From: Bacteroidota bacterium
GTDB taxonomy: Bacteria > Bacteroidota > Bacteroidia > Bacteroidales > Prolixibacteraceae
Assembly (NCBI GenBank): GCA_030684645.1
Contig: JAUXUF010000311.1
Coordinates: 1-64,000 of the forward strand
Direction: 5' to 3'
Length of the DNA stretch: 64,000 nucleotides
The position numbers and the translations under genes are program-made. Positions 39,792-49,440 of this stretch are shown here, piece after piece. Below the pieces are notes generated by a model that did not search any database, was not told the DNA's origin, and worked only from the letters and a program-made list of their open reading frames with translations. Positions within the stretch are counted from its first letter, which is position 1. Each line of letters opens with the position of its first letter.

Positions 39792-41948
39792 TTATTCTTC
39801 TTTTTCTTCGGCTGCGTAGGCTGTCAAAAGTTCGTCCTGTACCTCCTGAGGTACTTTTTCGTAGGCAGCGAATTTCATGTTGAAAACGCCACGTCCACCG
39901 GTAAGTGAACTCAATGAAGTGGAGTATTTGTTCATTTCCTTTAGCGGAACGCGGGCCGTAATTTTTTCATAGCCTTTTTCGCTTCCCATACCCATGATCA
40001 ATGCGCGGCGGCCTTGCAGGTCGCTCATTACATCGCCCATCCGGTCGCCCTGTACCCAAACATCCAGATCATAAATTGGTTCCAGAATTTTTGCCCCGGC
40101 ATTTTTAAAAGCAATACTGAAGGCATTACGACCTGCCAAACGGAAAGATATTTCGTTTGAATCAACCGGGTGCATTTTGCCGTCATAAACGTAAACCCGA
40201 ATATCGCGGGCATACGAACCGGTAAGCGGACCTTCTTCCATTTTTTCCATGATACCTTTAACAATGGCCGGAAGAAAACGGGTGTCAATCGAACCTCCTA
40301 CAATGCAGTTGTGAAAAACCAGTTTGCCTCCCCATGCCATTGGAAATTCCTGAGTGTCGCGAACAGATATTTTTTGCTCCTTGCCGTTCATGATAAACAT
40401 GTTTTTTGGCTGGCTGCCTTCTTCAAACGGTTCAATAATCAGGTGAACTTCGCCAAACTGACCGGAACCGCCCGATTGTTTTTTATGCCTGTAATCACCC
40501 ATTGCCGATTTCGTAATGGTTTCGCGGTATGGAATTTTCGGAGTTTTAAATTCGATGGCGATTTTATGAATGTGGTCGAAGTACCATTTCAAGGTGTTTA
40601 GATGGTATTCTCCCTGACCTTCAACAATTAACTGCTTCAATTCTTTAAAATAATTCACAATATAAGTTGGGTCTTCATCCTTAACTTTGTGCAGGATTTC
40701 ACCCACTTTTTCATCATCAGTTTCTGATAGCGCTTTTATTGCTACCCTGAATTTAGGTTCTGGAAATATGATCGGGGCAAATTTCAGGTCCAATTCTTTT
40801 TCACAAAGCGTTTGGTTGAATTTGGTATCTTTCAGCTTTACGGTGCAACCGATATCCCCGGCAACCAGTTCAGGAACACTGGTGCGATTTTTCCCGGCGG
40901 TTACAAAAAGTTGCGAGATTCTTTCTTTACCATTATTGAAGGTGTTGTACAGATCTTTTCCTTCAGTAACTTTCCCCGACATGACTTTAAAGTACGTAAC
41001 CTCGCCAACATGTGGTTCCAATGCCGTTTTAAACACGAATAATGAAGTTGGATTTGATTCGTTCATTTCAACAGGTTTACCCTGAGTAATTTCCCGCATG
41101 GGTACTTGTGAAGGAGCAGGGGCGATGTTACAAACAAATTCGAGTAATCGGCCAACGCCCATATTTTTCTTGGCAGAAACGCAGAATACAGGGAATAAAT
41201 CGCGTTTGGTCATCCCAATTCTCATTCCTCTGCGCATATCATCTTCTGACAACGAACCCTGTTCAAAATAGAGTTCCATCAATGATTCTTCATTTTCAGC
41301 GGCCATTTCAGCCAGTTCGTTGTGCAATTTATCAGCGCGTACTTTTTCCGAAGCAGGAATATCAAGTACTTCCGGTTTTCCTCCATCAGGGCCGTATTTG
41401 TACAATTTCATTGTTAACACATCAACAATAGAGTTAAATCCGATGCCTGTTTCAACGGGATACTGTACAACGGTTACTTTATTCCCGAATTTGCTTTTTA
41501 AATTATCGACATCCTGGTCATAATTGGCATTCTCATTATCGAGGTGGTTCAATACAAAAATCAGCTTACTATTAGCTGCTTCGGCGTGGCGAAAGGCCGA
41601 TTCTGTTCCGGCGCCAATCCCGGTTGAAGCATCGATAACCATCAGGGCAAGTCCGGCAACCTGAAGGGAAGAAACTACACCCCCGCAAAAATCATCCATC
41701 CCGGGGTTGTCCAGAATATTAATTTTTTTGCCGTTAATTTCGGCATACATGAGCGAGGAAAATACAGAATTGCCGTATTCCTGCTCAATCAGATGATAGT
41801 CGGAAACGGTATTCTTGCTTCCAACATCACCTCTACGGTTTATTACTCCACCCTCGAAAAGCATAGCTTCTGCGAGGGTGGTTTTCCCACTGCCAGCATT
41901 ACCGATTAATGTAATGTTGCGAATTTCTCCAGTTTTATAGACTTTCAT
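39792..41948 (-). CDS. Elongation factor G paralog (EF-G2-like) with divergent GTPase motifs
   Basis: EF-G domain layout. P-loop GNAGSGKTT; G3 DNPGMDDF instead of DTPGHVDF; G4 NHLD instead of NKMD. Canonical fusA is separately at 47329. Confidence 0.9.
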   Translation of the reverse strand: MKVYKTGEIRNITLIGNAGSGKTTLAEAMLFEGGVINRRGDVGSKNTVSDYHLIEQEYGNSVFSSLMYAEINGKKINILDNPGMDDFCGGVVSSLQVAGLALMVIDASTGIGAGTESAFRHAEAANSKLIFVLNHLDNENANYDQDVDNLKSKFGNKVTVVQYPVETGIGFNSIVDVLTMKLYKYGPDGGKPEVLDIPASEKVRADKLHNELAEMAAENEESLMELYFEQGSLSEDDMRRGMRIGMTKRDLFPVFCVSAKKNMGVGRLLEFVCNIAPAPSQVPMREITQGKPVEMNESNPTSLFVFKTALEPHVGEVTYFKVMSGKVTEGKDLYNTFNNGKERISQLFVTAGKNRTSVPELVAGDIGCTVKLKDTKFNQTLCEKELDLKFAPIIFPEPKFRVAIKALSETDDEKVGEILHKVKDEDPTYIVNYFKELKQLIVEGQGEYHLNTLKWYFDHIHKIAIEFKTPKIPYRETITKSAMGDYRHKKQSGGSGQFGEVHLIIEPFEEGSQPKNMFIMNGKEQKISVRDTQEFPMAWGGKLVFHNCIVGGSIDTRFLPAIVKGIMEKMEEGPLTGSYARDIRVYVYDGKMHPVDSNEISFRLAGRNAFSIAFKNAGAKILEPIYDLDVWVQGDRMGDVMSDLQGRRALIMGMGSEKGYEKITARVPLKEMNKYSTSLSSLTGGRGVFNMKFAAYEKVPQEVQDELLTAYAAEEKEE

Positions 41949-42495
41949 ATTGACATAGTTAATGGGTTTTTACTCCTTCATTATCAGCTATCTCAGGCTG
42001 TGATTAACAGAGAGGATCAAATTTAGTAATAATTAATTAACAACCAAGATGCAGTTGGGTAAGCTGGAATTGTTATAAAAAGTGAAGTTTGTTCCTGAAT
42101 TTAAAGGTTAAGAAAATCAGGTGATTGTGTTTTTAAGGATAATTAACTATTGGCTATAAAAGGCAGTAATACAGTAGAATGTAAAGATAATATGTTGTTG
42201 AATATTTTTTTTAATCGTTCGAAAAATATATTGCGTCAGAATGCTGAGGGTACAACAGGTGTGTGGAAAGTAAGGTGCTGGAAAGCAGTAAAATATACTA
42301 TATTTGAATTTATGCAATATTATGATTTCCCTTATCGAAGATTTTTTTTGATTTCTAAAAGTGTTTAGAAATCTGATCTCCCAATATTTCTGTTTCGCTT
42401 GGCAAGCAGGTCGTTCCACAATTTTAGTAAGATTTTGATTTGGAAATTAGTTGTTTCATATAATTCTGTTATTTTTGAGCATCCTAGAACGCGGT

Positions 42496-44682
42496 ATGTC
42501 AAAATTTCCCTTCTTCAAACAATACGATGCCATGGATTGCGGACCAGCGTGTCTCCGCATGATAGCTGCATTCTATGGGAAAACATATTCACTTCAGAAA
42601 CTTCGTGATCTGGCACACATTACCCGTGAAGGTGTTTCACTGCTTGGTTTGAGTGAAGCAGCCGAAACCATTGGTTTTCGTACGATCGGTGCCCGCATTA
42701 CCCTCGAACAATTGATGGAAGCCCCGAAACCCTGCGTTGTTCACTGGGACCAGGATCATTTTGTAGTCGTTTACAACTACCGGAAAGGCAGGATATCTGT
42801 ATCAGATCCGGCATTCGGACTGGTTGAATACACCGAAGCAGAATTTAAAAAACACTGGCTGGCGACTGTCCGTCAGGGCGAACAGAAGGGAATTTGCCTG
42901 TTGTTTGAACCAACCCCGAAGTTCTTTGAGCTGGAAGGTGAGACAATTAATCGTGGCAATTTCAAATTTCTCCTGAAATACCTGAAACCTCACCGAAGAC
43001 TGGTTATTCAGTTGGTGCTGGGATTTTTTGTTGGCAGCCTGATTCAGCTGATTTTTCCTTTTCTGACACAGAGCATTGTTGATGTTGGTATCAATACCCA
43101 GGACATCAACTTTATATATCTGATTCTGGCAGCGCAGATGATGCTTTTCCTGAGCCGGATGACCGTGGATTTTATCCGGTCATGGATTCTGCTTCACATC
43201 AGCACACGAATTAATATCAGCATCATCTCCGATTTCCTGATTAAGCTGATGAAAATGCCGATTGGCTTTTTCGATACCAAAATGATTGGCGATTTGCTTC
43301 AGCGCATAGGAGATCATCGTCGAATCGAACGGTTTTTGACCTCACAATCGCTCAATGTTATTTTTTCTGTTTTCAATATAGTGATATTCAGTATTGTACT
43401 TGTCCTGTACAATTTGGGTATCTTCCTTGTATTTCTGTTTGGTTCAGTAATGTACATTGGTTGGATTTTTTTATTTCTCCGGAAACGGCGCGAGCTCGAT
43501 TTTAAACGGTTCGCTCAACTGGCCGACAATCAAAGCAAGCTGATCCAGTTAATCAACGGGATGCAGGAAATAAAACTGAACAACTACGAACGTCAGAAAA
43601 GGTGGGAGTGGGAGAGGATTCAGGCCCGGTTATTCAAAGTAAATGTAAATAACCTTTCCTTACAGCAATATCAGCAGGCAGGCTCGGTCTTCATCAACGA
43701 AACCAAGAATATTGTAATAACCATCCTGGCAGCCACTGCAGTTGTTAACGGACACATGACTTTGGGTATGATGCTGGCCGTACAATATATAATAGGCCAG
43801 ATGAACAGCCCGCTCGATCAGATGATTGAGTTTGTGCAGGTATCACAGGACGCCAAAATTAGTCTGGAACGGTTGGCCGAGATTCATAGCAACAAAGATG
43901 AAGACCAGGATCAGGAAGGAAAACTGACCACCTTACCGGCATCGGCTGATATTCGTATTTCGGATTTGGTTTTCCAGTACGAAGGGCCGCATTCTCCTAA
44001 AGTGCTTAATAATTTGAATCTGGTTCTTCCGCAAGGAAAAGTTACTGCCATTGTCGGGACCAGCGGAAGTGGCAAAACCACATTAGTGAAACTACTTCTT
44101 GGATTCTATCCACCGGTTTCCGGCTCTATCAAAATTGGCGATTCTGACTTATCGGCCTACCAGCAGCATTGGTGGCGTGCTAAATGCGGTGCGGTGATGC
44201 AGGATGGTTTTATCTTTTCAGATTCCATTGCATCCAACATTGCCATTGGCGATGAGGAACCCGACAAGGAAAGACTGAGCTATGCGGTTAGAATGGCCAA
44301 TATTCAGGAATTTATCGAAACTTTACCTTTAAATTACAATACCAAAATCGGGCCCGAAGGAGTTGGGATAAGCCAGGGGCAGAAACAGCGCATTCTAATA
44401 GCCCGGGCCATTTATAAAAATCCTGAATTTATTTTCTTCGATGAAGCGACCAACTCATTGGATGCGAACAACGAAAAAGTTATTCTGGAGAACCTGGATG
44501 AATTTTTTGCCGGAAAAACGGTTGTCGTTGTTGCCCACCGATTAAGTACCGTTAAAAATGCCCATCAGATCATTGTTATTGAAAAAGGAAATATCGTTGA
44601 AATTGGCACCCACGAAGAATTGACCCGAATAAAAGGCGCCTATTATCAATTGGTGAAGAACCAGCTTGAACTTGGGAACTAA
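42496..44682 (+). CDS. Peptidase C39-domain-containing ABC transporter (PCAT)
   Basis: N-terminal C39: KQYDAMDCGPACLRMIAAFYGK, VHWDQDHFVVVYN, SDPAFGLVEY. ABC Walker A GTSGSGKTT, ISQGQKQRILIARAI, FFDEATNSLD. Start set at MSKFPFF (42496). Confidence 0.94.
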   Translation: MSKFPFFKQYDAMDCGPACLRMIAAFYGKTYSLQKLRDLAHITREGVSLLGLSEAAETIGFRTIGARITLEQLMEAPKPCVVHWDQDHFVVVYNYRKGRISVSDPAFGLVEYTEAEFKKHWLATVRQGEQKGICLLFEPTPKFFELEGETINRGNFKFLLKYLKPHRRLVIQLVLGFFVGSLIQLIFPFLTQSIVDVGINTQDINFIYLILAAQMMLFLSRMTVDFIRSWILLHISTRINISIISDFLIKLMKMPIGFFDTKMIGDLLQRIGDHRRIERFLTSQSLNVIFSVFNIVIFSIVLVLYNLGIFLVFLFGSVMYIGWIFLFLRKRRELDFKRFAQLADNQSKLIQLINGMQEIKLNNYERQKRWEWERIQARLFKVNVNNLSLQQYQQAGSVFINETKNIVITILAATAVVNGHMTLGMMLAVQYIIGQMNSPLDQMIEFVQVSQDAKISLERLAEIHSNKDEDQDQEGKLTTLPASADIRISDLVFQYEGPHSPKVLNNLNLVLPQGKVTAIVGTSGSGKTTLVKLLLGFYPPVSGSIKIGDSDLSAYQQHWWRAKCGAVMQDGFIFSDSIASNIAIGDEEPDKERLSYAVRMANIQEFIETLPLNYNTKIGPEGVGISQGQKQRILIARAIYKNPEFIFFDEATNSLDANNEKVILENLDEFFAGKTVVVVAHRLSTVKNAHQIIVIEKGNIVEIGTHEELTRIKGAYYQLVKNQLELGN

Positions 44683-44739
44683 AACGAAGGGCTGAAGGAT
44701 TGATTTTATACTGAGACTGAATACTGAGACTAGTTTATC

Positions 44740-46059
44740 ATGGATAAGGAGAAAAAAAATTTTGAAATAGAATTGAGAAGCGATGAATTCCAGGAGATTG
44801 TGCAGCAATCGCCCCGGTGGATGATTCGTTCCGGTATTTTCCTCATTTTCGGGATTGTAATCCTTTTGCTGGCTGGAAGTTACTTTTTTCGTTATCCGGA
44901 TGCCATCAATGCCAACATTGTGGTTCTGTCCGAAAATCCACCTGCATACCTGGCTGCCCGCACCACTGCCCGGATTGATTCACTGATGGCAGCCGACCAG
45001 CAACTGGTTTCCGAAGGTCAAATTATCGCCATACTCGAAAGTACGGCCAAATTTGAAGATGCCATGAAGTTGAAAGAGCTTTTTCTCCGTTTGGAACCGT
45101 TTATGCTGACTTTTGACACCCTGAATGTATCTGTACCTGAATTTGATTTGCAATTGGGTGATATTCAGTCGGATTATTCCAGTTTCGTAAGGTTGTACAA
45201 CGACTATTTTTCATTTCTGCGCCTGAAATTATATCCTAAGAAAATTAAATCGTTGAAGCAGCAAGTTGCGATGAACCGCATTTATTACGACCGGCTTTGG
45301 GCGCAAAAACAAGATATGGAAGCAGATTTTCGTTTAACCAATAGTCAGTTTAAACGCGATTCTTTGCTTCAGATGAAGGGTGTACTTTCTGATCTGGATT
45401 TGGAAAAAACCAAAGCCATCCTGATTCAGAAAAAATTCAATTTAAACAGTGCACGCACAAAACTTGCTGAAACCCAAAGTTCAACCATAAAGATAGAACA
45501 GGATGTGGTTGATGCCGAAATGGAATTTGCCAATCAGACTAAAAAAGCTCAGAGTACATTGGTTGAAGCCATGAATGTTCTGAAAAGCCGGTTGGCCTTT
45601 TGGGAACAAACCTATATTGTCAGGAGCCCAATTTCAGGCAAAGTAAGTTTTACCAATTTCTGGAGTAACAATCAGCAAGTCAAAAAAGATGAGATTGTAT
45701 TTTCTGTTATTCCTGAAAAACAATCCCAAATCATTGGCCGGATCAGCCTGGCATTTAAAGGAGCCGGAAAGGTAGCTGTTGGTCAAAGAGTCAATATCAG
45801 GTTCGAAAATTTTCCGTATATGGAATATGGCTTTATCAAAGGCACGGTTAAAAGCATTTCGCTAATTCCAAACAATGAAAATTACATTGTTGAAGTGGAG
45901 TTGCCCCAGGACCTGATGACCAATTACAACATACCATTAAAATTCAGTCAGGAGATGAAAGGATCAGCCGAAATAATAACAGAAGATTTAAGACTCATCC
46001 AACGATTTTTTAATCCGGTAAAATCGCTGCTTAAACACCGGGTTTCCCAATCAGAATAA
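44740..46059 (+). CDS. HlyD-family membrane fusion/adaptor protein
   Basis: Single N-terminal TM, long coiled coil, VRSPISGKVSFTNFW lipoyl-like motif; directly downstream of the PCAT. Confidence 0.9.
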   Translation: MDKEKKNFEIELRSDEFQEIVQQSPRWMIRSGIFLIFGIVILLLAGSYFFRYPDAINANIVVLSENPPAYLAARTTARIDSLMAADQQLVSEGQIIAILESTAKFEDAMKLKELFLRLEPFMLTFDTLNVSVPEFDLQLGDIQSDYSSFVRLYNDYFSFLRLKLYPKKIKSLKQQVAMNRIYYDRLWAQKQDMEADFRLTNSQFKRDSLLQMKGVLSDLDLEKTKAILIQKKFNLNSARTKLAETQSSTIKIEQDVVDAEMEFANQTKKAQSTLVEAMNVLKSRLAFWEQTYIVRSPISGKVSFTNFWSNNQQVKKDEIVFSVIPEKQSQIIGRISLAFKGAGKVAVGQRVNIRFENFPYMEYGFIKGTVKSISLIPNNENYIVEVELPQDLMTNYNIPLKFSQEMKGSAEIITEDLRLIQRFFNPVKSLLKHRVSQSE

Positions 46060-46282: not shown

Positions 46283-46663
46283 ATGCCAACGATTCAGCAG
46301 TTAGTTAGAAAAGGAAGACAAAGTAATGCGGAGAAAAGTAAGTCTCCGGCATTGGATTCTTGCCCACAGAGAAGGGGAGTATGTGTTCGTGTTTATACCA
46401 CAACTCCTAAAAAACCAAACTCAGCGATGCGTAAAGTAGCCAGGGTTCGGTTGACAAATGGCAAGGAAGTGAACGCTTACATTCCGGGAGAAGGTCATAA
46501 CCTTCAGGAACATTCTATTGTATTGGTACGCGGTGGTAGGGTAAAAGACCTTCCGGGAGTTCGTTACCATTTAATTCGTGGCGCTTTGGATACCGCCGGT
46601 GTTGAAGGTCGTACTCAAAGACGGTCGAAATACGGTACCAAAAGACCAAAAGTGAAAAAATAA
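46283..46663 (+). CDS. rpsL: 30S ribosomal protein S12
   Basis: [12 protein letters not shown]...[34 protein letters not shown]. Confidence 0.99.
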
Positions 46664-46789
46664 GATTTTCACTGATTTATTTATTTAATTGACGTTCTAG
46701 CTTAGTGGTTTGAGTTGAGTAAAGAGGCCCCAGAGCCGATTGAAGCCCACAAACGACAGCGAATTTAATTAACACTTAAGCATTACATA

Positions 46790-47266
46790 ATGAGAAAATC
46801 GAAACCAAAGAAGCGGATCATTCTGCCCGATCCAAAATTTAATGACGTACTGGTTACACGTTTCGTCAACGACTTGATGTATGACGGTAAAAAATCCATC
46901 GCGTATCAAATATTCTACGACGCCATGGATATCGTTGAGAAAAAAATGAAGGACTCTGAAGTTAGTCCGGTGGATGTGTTTAAAAAAGCGCTCGAAAAAA
47001 TTACCCCTCACGTTGAAGTGAAAAGCAGAAGAGTTGGTGGAGCTACATTCCAGGTTCCTATGGAAATCCGCCCCGAAAGAAAAACCTCAATCTCAGTCAA
47101 AAACTTAATCTTATATTCCCGCAAACGTTCAGGCCGTTCGATGGCTGAAAAACTTGCAGGCGAAATTGTTGCAGCTTATAACGAAGAAGGTGGAGCTTTC
47201 AAAAAGAAAGAAGACACACACCGTATGGCTGAAGCAAACCGCGCATTTGCACATTTCCGTTTTTAG
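46790..47266 (+). CDS. rpsG: 30S ribosomal protein S7
   Basis: MRKSKPKKR...[17 protein letters not shown]. Confidence 0.99.
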
Positions 47267-47328
47267 TTTTTAGAAAAGGATTAGAAGAATAGAAAGCGTT
47301 TTAGTAAAAGGAAAGATATTGGTAAAAA

Positions 47329-49440
47329 ATGGCAAAAGACTTAAGATATACTAGAAATATTGGCATCATGGCTCACATTGATGCCGGCAAAACGACCACT
47401 TCGGAGCGCATCCTGTATTATACAGGTATCACGCACCGTATTGGAGAAGTCCACGATGGGGCTGCCACCATGGACTGGATGGAGCAGGAGCAGGAACGTG
47501 GTATTACCATTACCTCGGCTGCTACGACAACTTTCTGGACATATCAGGATATAGAACATAAAATTAACATCATCGATACTCCCGGACACGTTGACTTTAC
47601 TGTTGAAGTAGAGCGTTCGTTAAGGGTTTTGGATGGCGCTGTTGCTCTTTTTTGTGCTGTTGGTGGTGTTGAAGCTCAATCGGAAACGGTTTGGCGTCAG
47701 GCTGAAAAATATGGTGTTCCACGTATCGGGTTCGTGAATAAAATGGACCGTTCGGGAGCCGATTTTTATAATGTGCTTAATGAGGTAAGAGAGAAACTAG
47801 GGGCAAACCCGATTCCGATCACCATCCCAATTGGCGCTGAAGAAACTTTTGAAGGCGTGGTTGACTTGATCGAAATGAAAGCCATTCGCTGGAGAGACGA
47901 TGCAACATTGGGTACTACGTTTTATCTGGAAGAAATTCCAGCTGACATGAAAGAAATTGCCGATGAGTATCGTGCAAAACTGGTTGAAGCTGTTGCTGAA
48001 TTTGATGATGATTTGCTCGAACGTTTTTTCGAGGATCCGGAATCAATTACGGTTGATCAGATGTTGACTGTAATTCGTAAAGCAACCATCAGTGGTTCAA
48101 TCGTACCAATGATGTGTGGTTCGGCATTCAAAAACAAGGGTGTTCAGCGTTTGCTCGATGCCGTTTGTTCTTTCCTCCCAAGCCCACTTGATAAAGGCGA
48201 AATTGTTGGAGTTGAATATGATGATCCGGATGTTGAAATTATTCGTCATGCTGATGTGAACGAACCTCTTTCAGCTCTGGCATTCAAAATTGCTACCGAC
48301 CCTTATGTCGGTCGTTTGTGTTTTATTCGTGTTTATTCAGGTAAAATTACTGCAGGTGACTCGGTCTTTAATTCCAGGACAGGAAAAAAAGAACGCATCT
48401 CGCGTATTTACCAGATGCACTCCAACAAACAAAATCCGATTGATGTAATTGAAGCAGGTGATATTTGTGCAGCTGTTGGATTTAAAGATATCCGTACAGG
48501 CGATACTTTGTCTGATTTAGACAATCCTGTTGTTCTTGAAAGTATGGACTTTCCGGAACCAGTTATCGGCATTGCCATTGAGCCTAAAACTCAAAAAGAT
48601 CTCGATAAATTGAATTTGGGTTTATATAAGCTTGCCGAAGAAGATCCAACGTTTAAAGTAAATACCGATCAGGATTCAGGCCAGACCATCATTAGAGGAA
48701 TGGGTGAACTTCACCTTGAAATTATTGTTGACCGTCTTCGTCGTGAATTTAAAGTGGAATGTAACCAGGGAGCTCCCCAGGTTGCTTATAAAGAATGTAT
48801 CACCAAATCGGTTGAAATCCGTGAAGTGTTCAAGAAACAATCCGGAGGCCGTGGTAAATTCGCTGATATTAGTGTTCGCGTTGAGCCAGCCGATGAAGGT
48901 AAAATCGGACTTCAGTTTGTTGATGCTGTCAAAGGCGGAAACATTCCACGCGAATATATCCCATCCGTACAAAAAGGATTCGAATCTGCTTTGTTGAACG
49001 GTCCGCTGGCAGGGTTCAATGTCGATAGCCTGAAGGTTACACTGCTCGATGGTAGTTTCCATGCAGTTGACTCCGATCAGTTGTCATTTGAAATCTGCGC
49101 ACGTCAGGCATTTAAAACTGCTGCCGGTAAAGCAGGTCCAAGATTGCTTGAACCTATTATGAAATGCGAAATTGTTACTCCTGAAGAATACATGGGTGAC
49201 ATTATCGGTGACCTTAACCGACGTCGGGGGCAAATTGAAGGTATGGAAGAAAAAGCGGGCGCCCGTGTGATCAAAGCATTGGTTCCGCTTTCTGAATTAT
49301 TCGGATATGTAACTGTCCTCCGGACTTTATCGTCTGGTCGTGCAACATCGTCAATGGAATTCGCGAAATACGTTGAATTACCGAAACTATTGGCAATTAA
49401 AGTTCTTGATGATTTAAAAGGAAGAACAGACCTATTATAA
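47329..49440 (+). CDS. fusA: Elongation factor G (canonical)
   Basis: [36 protein letters not shown]; between rpsG and rpsJ. Confidence 0.99.

Follow-up and report, generated by a model that had tools for sequence, protein, structure and literature searches.

A Bacteroidales ortholog of Bacteroides EF-G2 encoded close to the str operon in a Prolixibacteraceae genome

Elongation factor G2 of Bacteroides thetaiotaomicron (Bt EF-G2; gene fusA2, BT2167; PDB 8dmf and 7uvp) catalyses translocation without GTP hydrolysis (PMC12775393) and has been associated with GTP-independent translation (PMC10294740). At carbon limitation its gene is induced 238-fold via BT4338 (Cur) bound to CCTTATGTTACATAACATTGTT (PMC6989115). 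The protein carries the residues of the EFG II subfamily described by Margus et al. in 2011 (PMC3150367). Two other EFG II proteins are useful for comparison. Thermus thermophilus EF-G-2 (PDB 1wdt and 2dy1) reportedly binds GTP, hydrolyses it and supports poly(Phe) synthesis (Connell et al., as cited in passages of PMC3150367). EF-G2 of Mycobacterium smegmatis, ribosome-bound in PDB 9k0z, is reported to be devoid of ribosome-dependent GTPase activity (also according to citing passages of PMC3150367).

Here, we describe an EF-G paralog encoded in a 64,000-nucleotide stretch of a Prolixibacteraceae genome, referred to below as the window. We regard four points as new: a two-step history of the domain IV insert, the universal loss of the switch II histidine in Bacteroidota EFG II, the linkage of the gene to the str operon and the spread of Cur-like sites.

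Relationship to Bacteroides EF-G2

The paralog gene, fusA2, is located at positions 39792-41948 on the minus strand. Its reading frame starts with ATG and is intact. The 718-residue product contains all five EF-G domains. The genome holds one fusA2 and one canonical fusA (47329-49440, plus strand, 703 residues), the remaining matches being distant translational GTPases. The product is recognised by the NCBIfam model NF058620 (EFG2_Bacteroid; elongation factor G2, Bacteroidota) with 1245.6 bits for a cut-off of 1000, residues 1-717 covering profile positions 1-717. Alignment with the 718-residue Bt EF-G2 is collinear over the full length, with 59.5% identity over 718 columns. Domains IV (75%) and V (73%) are the most conserved, and the G domain is 53% identical. 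Identity to the window's own canonical EF-G is 28-37%, depending on the domain. Bt EF-G2 is the nearest solved chain (7uvp and 8dmf, 718 residues) and matches over its whole length. An AlphaFold model of the protein has a mean pLDDT of 83.9. Search for structural similarities using Foldseek gave 8dmf, entitled 'ribosome-bound Bacteroides thetaiotaomicron EF-G2', as the top match, with a TM score of 0.94. Canonical EF-Gs score about 0.8 and T. thermophilus EF-G-2, which has the same fold, 0.82. M. smegmatis EF-G2 is also an EFG II protein but is only about 29% identical and has QQRSV as its G2 motif.

For the phylogeny, EF-G2 and EF-G sequences were collected from related records as well as from the phylum at large. 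Outgroup EFG II proteins were obtained by plasmid and phage searches. In a first phylum-wide tree of 99 rows, two long branches (L140 and L142) fell together. A more careful tree of 54 rows was built with these two left out and with the domain IV insert and the histidine column removed. Both trees place canonical EF-G on one side (support 100) and EFG II on the other, and in both the window protein sits in a Prolixibacteraceae clade. This clade and Bt EF-G2 form one Bacteroidales clade in both trees (100/100 in the 54-row tree). The nearest named relatives are Prolixibacteraceae metagenome-assembled genomes (90-93% identity) and Maribellus sediminis (71%). All eight tested EFG II type I and type II positions carry the residue of the subfamily (Gly16, Leu25, Ser61, Thr308, Gly352, Lys371, Lys489 and Lys490), and the G2 motif YGNSV resembles YGYSV, the form listed for Bacteroidetes in PMC3150367. 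Profile, structure and tree thus strongly support the assignment of 39792-41948 as fusA2, a vertically inherited Bacteroidales ortholog of Bacteroides EF-G2. The first-pass annotation had proposed this orthology as plausible and had named a phylogeny with motif mapping as the way to check it. The proposal is borne out, since the protein groups with Bt EF-G2 inside EFG II, and not with canonical EF-G or with a tetracycline-resistance clade.

The GTPase centre and the missing switch II histidine

The G domain motifs, all encoded on the minus strand, are as follows. The P-loop is GNAGSGKT (residues 16-23; 41880-41903), in which the nucleotide-binding Lys22 is retained and Gly16 replaces the canonical Ala. 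Switch I reads EYGNSVFSS (residues 57-65; 41754-41780), with Ser61, an EFG II marker (PMC3150367), in place of the Mg-binding Thr. Switch II reads DNPGMDDF (residues 80-87; 41688-41711), with Met84 (codon ATG) at the position of the catalytic His, His87 in T. thermophilus EF-G. The G4 motif is NHLD (residues 134-137; 41538-41549), in which a His stands for Lys135 of NKxD. The canonical EF-G of the window shares the five-domain translational GTPase fold and the conserved domain IV tip, but its His, NKxD and RGITI are intact (AHIDAGKTT / ERGITITSA / DTPGHVDF / NKMD) and it has no insert in domain IV. The contrast between these motifs and GNAGSGKTT / GNSVFSS / DNPGMDDF / NHLD, including the replacement of His by Met, had been drawn in the first-pass annotation, and the sequences read exactly so. 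Its description of the protein as lacking the canonical NKxD needs a nuance, because the Lys alone is gone. Nucleotide binding is expected to persist, given that Asn134, Asp137, Lys22, Asp80 and Gly83 of DxPG, and Ser61 are all retained.

The missing His is no sequencing accident. Met occupies this position in all close relatives (L008-L024) and dN/dS, calculated against 11 close relatives, is 0.04-0.06, indicating strong purifying selection. The catalytic His is present in 11 of 11 canonical EF-G proteins counted and in none of the 115 Bacteroidota EFG II proteins examined. These have Tyr (48), Met (34), Ser (10), Leu (7), Thr (7), Phe (6), Ala (2) or Pro (1) instead. Met characterises the window's part of the Bacteroidales, Ser the Bacteroides side. 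Accordingly, Bt EF-G2 has Ser where the window protein has Met, and it has NQLD where the window protein has NHLD. No variation was seen among the same 115 proteins in the P-loop Lys or in the Asp and Gly of DxPG, while the NKxD Lys position is occupied by Lys (43), His (40), Gln (31) or Ala (1). The two remote EFG II proteins also lack the His, with DAPGYGDF in T. thermophilus EF-G-2 and DTPGYADF in the M. smegmatis EF-G2 chain. The careful tree explains its absence by one change, which puts the loss of the His in the ancestry of the EFG II subfamily.

The missing His therefore accompanies both outcomes, since the Thermus protein, as cited, hydrolyses GTP and the mycobacterial one has no ribosome-dependent GTPase activity. 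Loss of the His does not by itself show that a protein is non-hydrolysing, because T. thermophilus EF-G-2, with a Tyr there, is reported as a GTP-hydrolysing factor in the passages of PMC3150367 that cite it. The step from His loss to non-hydrolysis, taken in the first-pass annotation, thus fails. Its conclusion may nevertheless be right by orthology. Regarding NKxD, conservation in EFG II is given as general, and not as a defining mark, in PMC3150367. The window protein differs in having NHLD, and by phylogeny this is a loss of the Lys inside EFG II that does not exclude the protein from the subfamily.

The domain IV insert and the proposed function

Domain IV contains an insert of 30 residues (513-542; 40323-40412, minus strand), seen in the alignment and in the AlphaFold model, where canonical EF-G has 3. 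In the model it is predicted to fold as a beta-hairpin (517-526) followed by a strand (531-536). Its length equals that of the Bt EF-G2 insert, and 14 of the 30 residues are identical. Han et al. reportedly described in Bt EF-G2 a unique region of 26 residues, required for activity and responsible for the lack of GTPase. By its size, this region may be the domain IV insert.

To compare proteins, we measured the segment between EPxxxGx and xVFxN in domain IV. In canonical EF-G it mostly has 3 residues, with up to 12 in a few proteins, and it likewise has 3 in those EFG II proteins of the phylum that carry no insert (L106-L121). The segment is 21 residues long in most Bacteroidota EF-G2 and 30 in Bacteroidales EF-G2, including the window protein and Bt EF-G2. 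On the 54-row tree this distribution requires two changes only, one gain and one extension. Two proteins of the Bacteroidales side that lie outside this tree (L022 and L040) are exceptions, with 21 residues. L022 may be chimeric, its source genome having two EF-G2 fragments. T. thermophilus EF-G-2 has no insert, its alignment jumping from 492 to 497 where the window protein runs from 510 to 546. Compared with EFG II as described in PMC3150367, the window protein has the insert and lacks the NKxD Lys given there as conserved. The insert, which reportedly underlies the missing GTPase activity in Bacteroides, is a better marker than His loss. The diagnostic should be corrected so that a missing switch II His marks all EFG II and the domain IV insert the Bacteroidota branch. 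The phylum also offers a natural series to find out which change abolishes hydrolysis: proteins lacking both the His and the insert, and proteins lacking the His but having a segment of 21 or of 30 residues. The answer bears on the debate over the role of GTP in translocation.

Taken with the orthology, these features make it likely that EF-G2 of the window is a nucleotide-binding translocase that works without hydrolysis and serves under energy or carbon shortage. With the P-loop Lys, the Asp and Gly of DxPG and the Asn and Asp of NKxD in place, the five-domain protein should bind guanine nucleotide. It would then dock on the ribosome and promote tRNA-mRNA translocation via the domain IV tip loops, as Bt EF-G2 does. 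These loops are intact (HKKQSGGSGQFG and KMHPVDSNE). As in the reports on Bt EF-G2, translocation would probably need no GTP hydrolysis triggered by the ribosome, since the catalytic His is missing and the domain IV insert has the same length. EF-G2 would most likely serve slow protein synthesis at energy or carbon shortage, and the EF-G of the str operon fast growth. We count against this explanation the poor diagnostic value of His loss, as seen with T. thermophilus EF-G-2, the limited insert identity with Bt EF-G2 (14/30) and the P value of 0.135 for the upstream Cur-type site.

A rather unlikely alternative, though the strongest one, is that EF-G2 still hydrolyses GTP slowly, perhaps intrinsically, as T. 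thermophilus EF-G-2 does, with a specialised role in another step (ribosome recycling or splitting, hibernation, special mRNAs) and not in saving energy. The GTP-binding residues are all retained under purifying selection, and Gly16, proposed to raise intrinsic GTPase activity (PMC3150367), occurs in the window protein. The Thermus protein is without the same His and is nonetheless GTP-hydrolysing and poly(Phe)-competent, as far as the citing passages of PMC3150367 report. However, it has no domain IV insert, whereas the window protein has one of the Bt length, and the closest relative tested so far, Bt EF-G2, reportedly has no GTPase activity. These two points argue against the alternative.

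Decay of a fusA duplicate toward a pseudogene would account for the catalytic His and the NKxD Lys both being gone, and the residue at the His position does differ among members of the subfamily (Y, M, S, L, T, F, A, P). This is very improbable and is rejected on the dN/dS given above. Moreover, 58 of the 60 family genomes have a full-length frame that exceeds the cut-off, the domain IV loops are invariant, and the tree makes fusA2 an ancient gene and no recent duplicate. A ribosomal-protection (tetracycline resistance) protein, hinted at by the PDB molecule name 'Tetracycline resistance protein TetQ' of chains 7uvp and 8dmf, has a practically negligible probability, being ruled out by profile scores (Tet(Q) model, 100.2 bits for a cut-off of 1425; generic tet_protect, 229 for 775) and by the grouping with EFG II in the tree, and the title of 8dmf itself says EF-G2. 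Such a label on the Bt EF-G2 chain can mislead sequence annotation.

Genomic setting, upstream region and distribution

fusA2 is divergent from the start of the str operon, rpsL-rpsG-fusA (46283-49440, plus strand), with an ABC/HlyD secretion pair (42451-46059) between them. Of 44 family genomes with fusA2 and fusA on the same contig, 42 have fusA2 within 1.4-23 kb upstream of fusA and in divergent orientation, the genes having been paired by hand from coordinates. It is immediately head-to-head with rpsL-rpsG-fusA in three loci (L146, L147 and L148). A C39-type ABC transporter and an HlyD-like protein intervene in the window and in two others (L149 and L151). From coordinates, the same close divergent pairing occurs in nine genomes of other Bacteroidales families. 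We found no mention of this linkage in the literature searched, whose coverage was partial. A tRNA scan of the window found none.

The promoter of fusA2 was located on the minus strand. The Bacteroidota -7 promoter consensus is TAnnTTTG. The -7 box TAAATTTG (42018-42025) lies within the best conserved upstream block, and a -33 element TTG (42045-42047) is found 19 nt from it. Further upstream, the block AATATTCAACAACATA (42191-42206, minus strand) is conserved among close relatives and contains an AACATA half-site. With 3 mismatches, it resembles a half-site of Cur/BT4338, for which the pattern wwwTATGTTnTAnAACATAwww was used. This best Cur-like site upstream of the window's fusA2 (at -258) is by itself not above chance (P=0.135 by shuffling), and a scan of the window gave 5 matches for 5.9 expected, hence no enrichment. 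The window gene thus differs from Bt fusA2 in its head-to-head linkage to the str operon and in having no demonstrable upstream Cur site, so that starvation control of the Bacteroides type is not established for it. Of 40 other Bacteroidales genomes, 9 have a Cur-like site with at most 2 mismatches in front of fusA2 (0.36 expected), several of these sites being near -100 to -130. Several families have such sites. Cur-type control of fusA2 therefore probably reaches beyond Bacteroides, though not demonstrably to the window's family. Near-perfect sites (0-1 mismatch) occur upstream of fusA2 in six loci (L043, L159, L161, L162, L163 and L167), one of which belongs to a Dysgonamonadaceae metagenome-assembled genome.

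All 60 genomes sampled from the window's family have EF-G2; 58 of these proteins exceed the cut-off, and in two genomes the gene is broken by contig ends or a frameshift. It scores above the cut-off in 46 of 50 sampled Bacteroidales genera, with one further partial match. Among 393 genomes of the phylum, at least 150 have it. EF-G2 thus belongs to the core genes of the Bacteroidales, environmental lineages included. Therefore, the reported energy-sparing translation may reach far beyond the gut. The occurrence of the ortholog outside Bacteroides, suggested at first pass, is correct but not new, as it was already recognised in the 'Bacterioidetes' group of EFG II (PMC3150367) and in the NCBIfam model EFG2_Bacteroid.

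More tentatively, and with considerable doubt on our part, hydrolysis-free elongation could be a trait of nearly all Bacteroidota EF-G2. It would have arisen by two insert steps on an already His-less GTPase centre, first the gain of 18 residues in domain IV close to the base of the group and then a 9-residue hairpin extension in the Bacteroidales. The shared fusA2/str intergenic region could then switch between a GTP-burning and a GTP-sparing EF-G. If true, hydrolysis-free elongation would be no peculiarity of gut Bacteroides.

Several minor observations concern individual records. One EF-G2 match contains an in-frame TAA (L066, G297:C4:86664-88763) and another a frameshift (L153, G396:C185); both may reflect assembly error or rare decay. 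A 277-kb Parabacteroides distasonis 'plasmid' (L138, NZ_OY725790.1) has hemW and a lipid A gene as neighbours of its EF-G2 gene, which suggests a mislabelled piece of chromosome.

Some genomes of the phylum contain pairs of EF-G genes, mostly adjacent (L129, L131, L133, L135 and L137, with neighbours L128, L130, L132, L134 and L136). One EF-G of each pair has EKGITIQSA as switch I and, in most pairs, also the KDG-type insert. Among solved structures, L135 is closest to mitochondrial EF-G1 (825 bits, versus 695 for T. thermophilus EF-G). These pairs look like the spdEFG1/spdEFG2 pair, reported only from spirochaetes, planctomycetes and delta-proteobacteria (PMC3150367).

Full EF-G genes were also found in phage-labelled records (L143, MT836755.1; L145, OR847439.1; L144, LR756508.1). 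The phage matches mostly look like bacterial EF-G in phage-labelled records, and L143 and L145 seem to be contaminating bacterial sequence. The EF-G of L144, an uncultured phage assembly of 484 kb, has canonical motifs.
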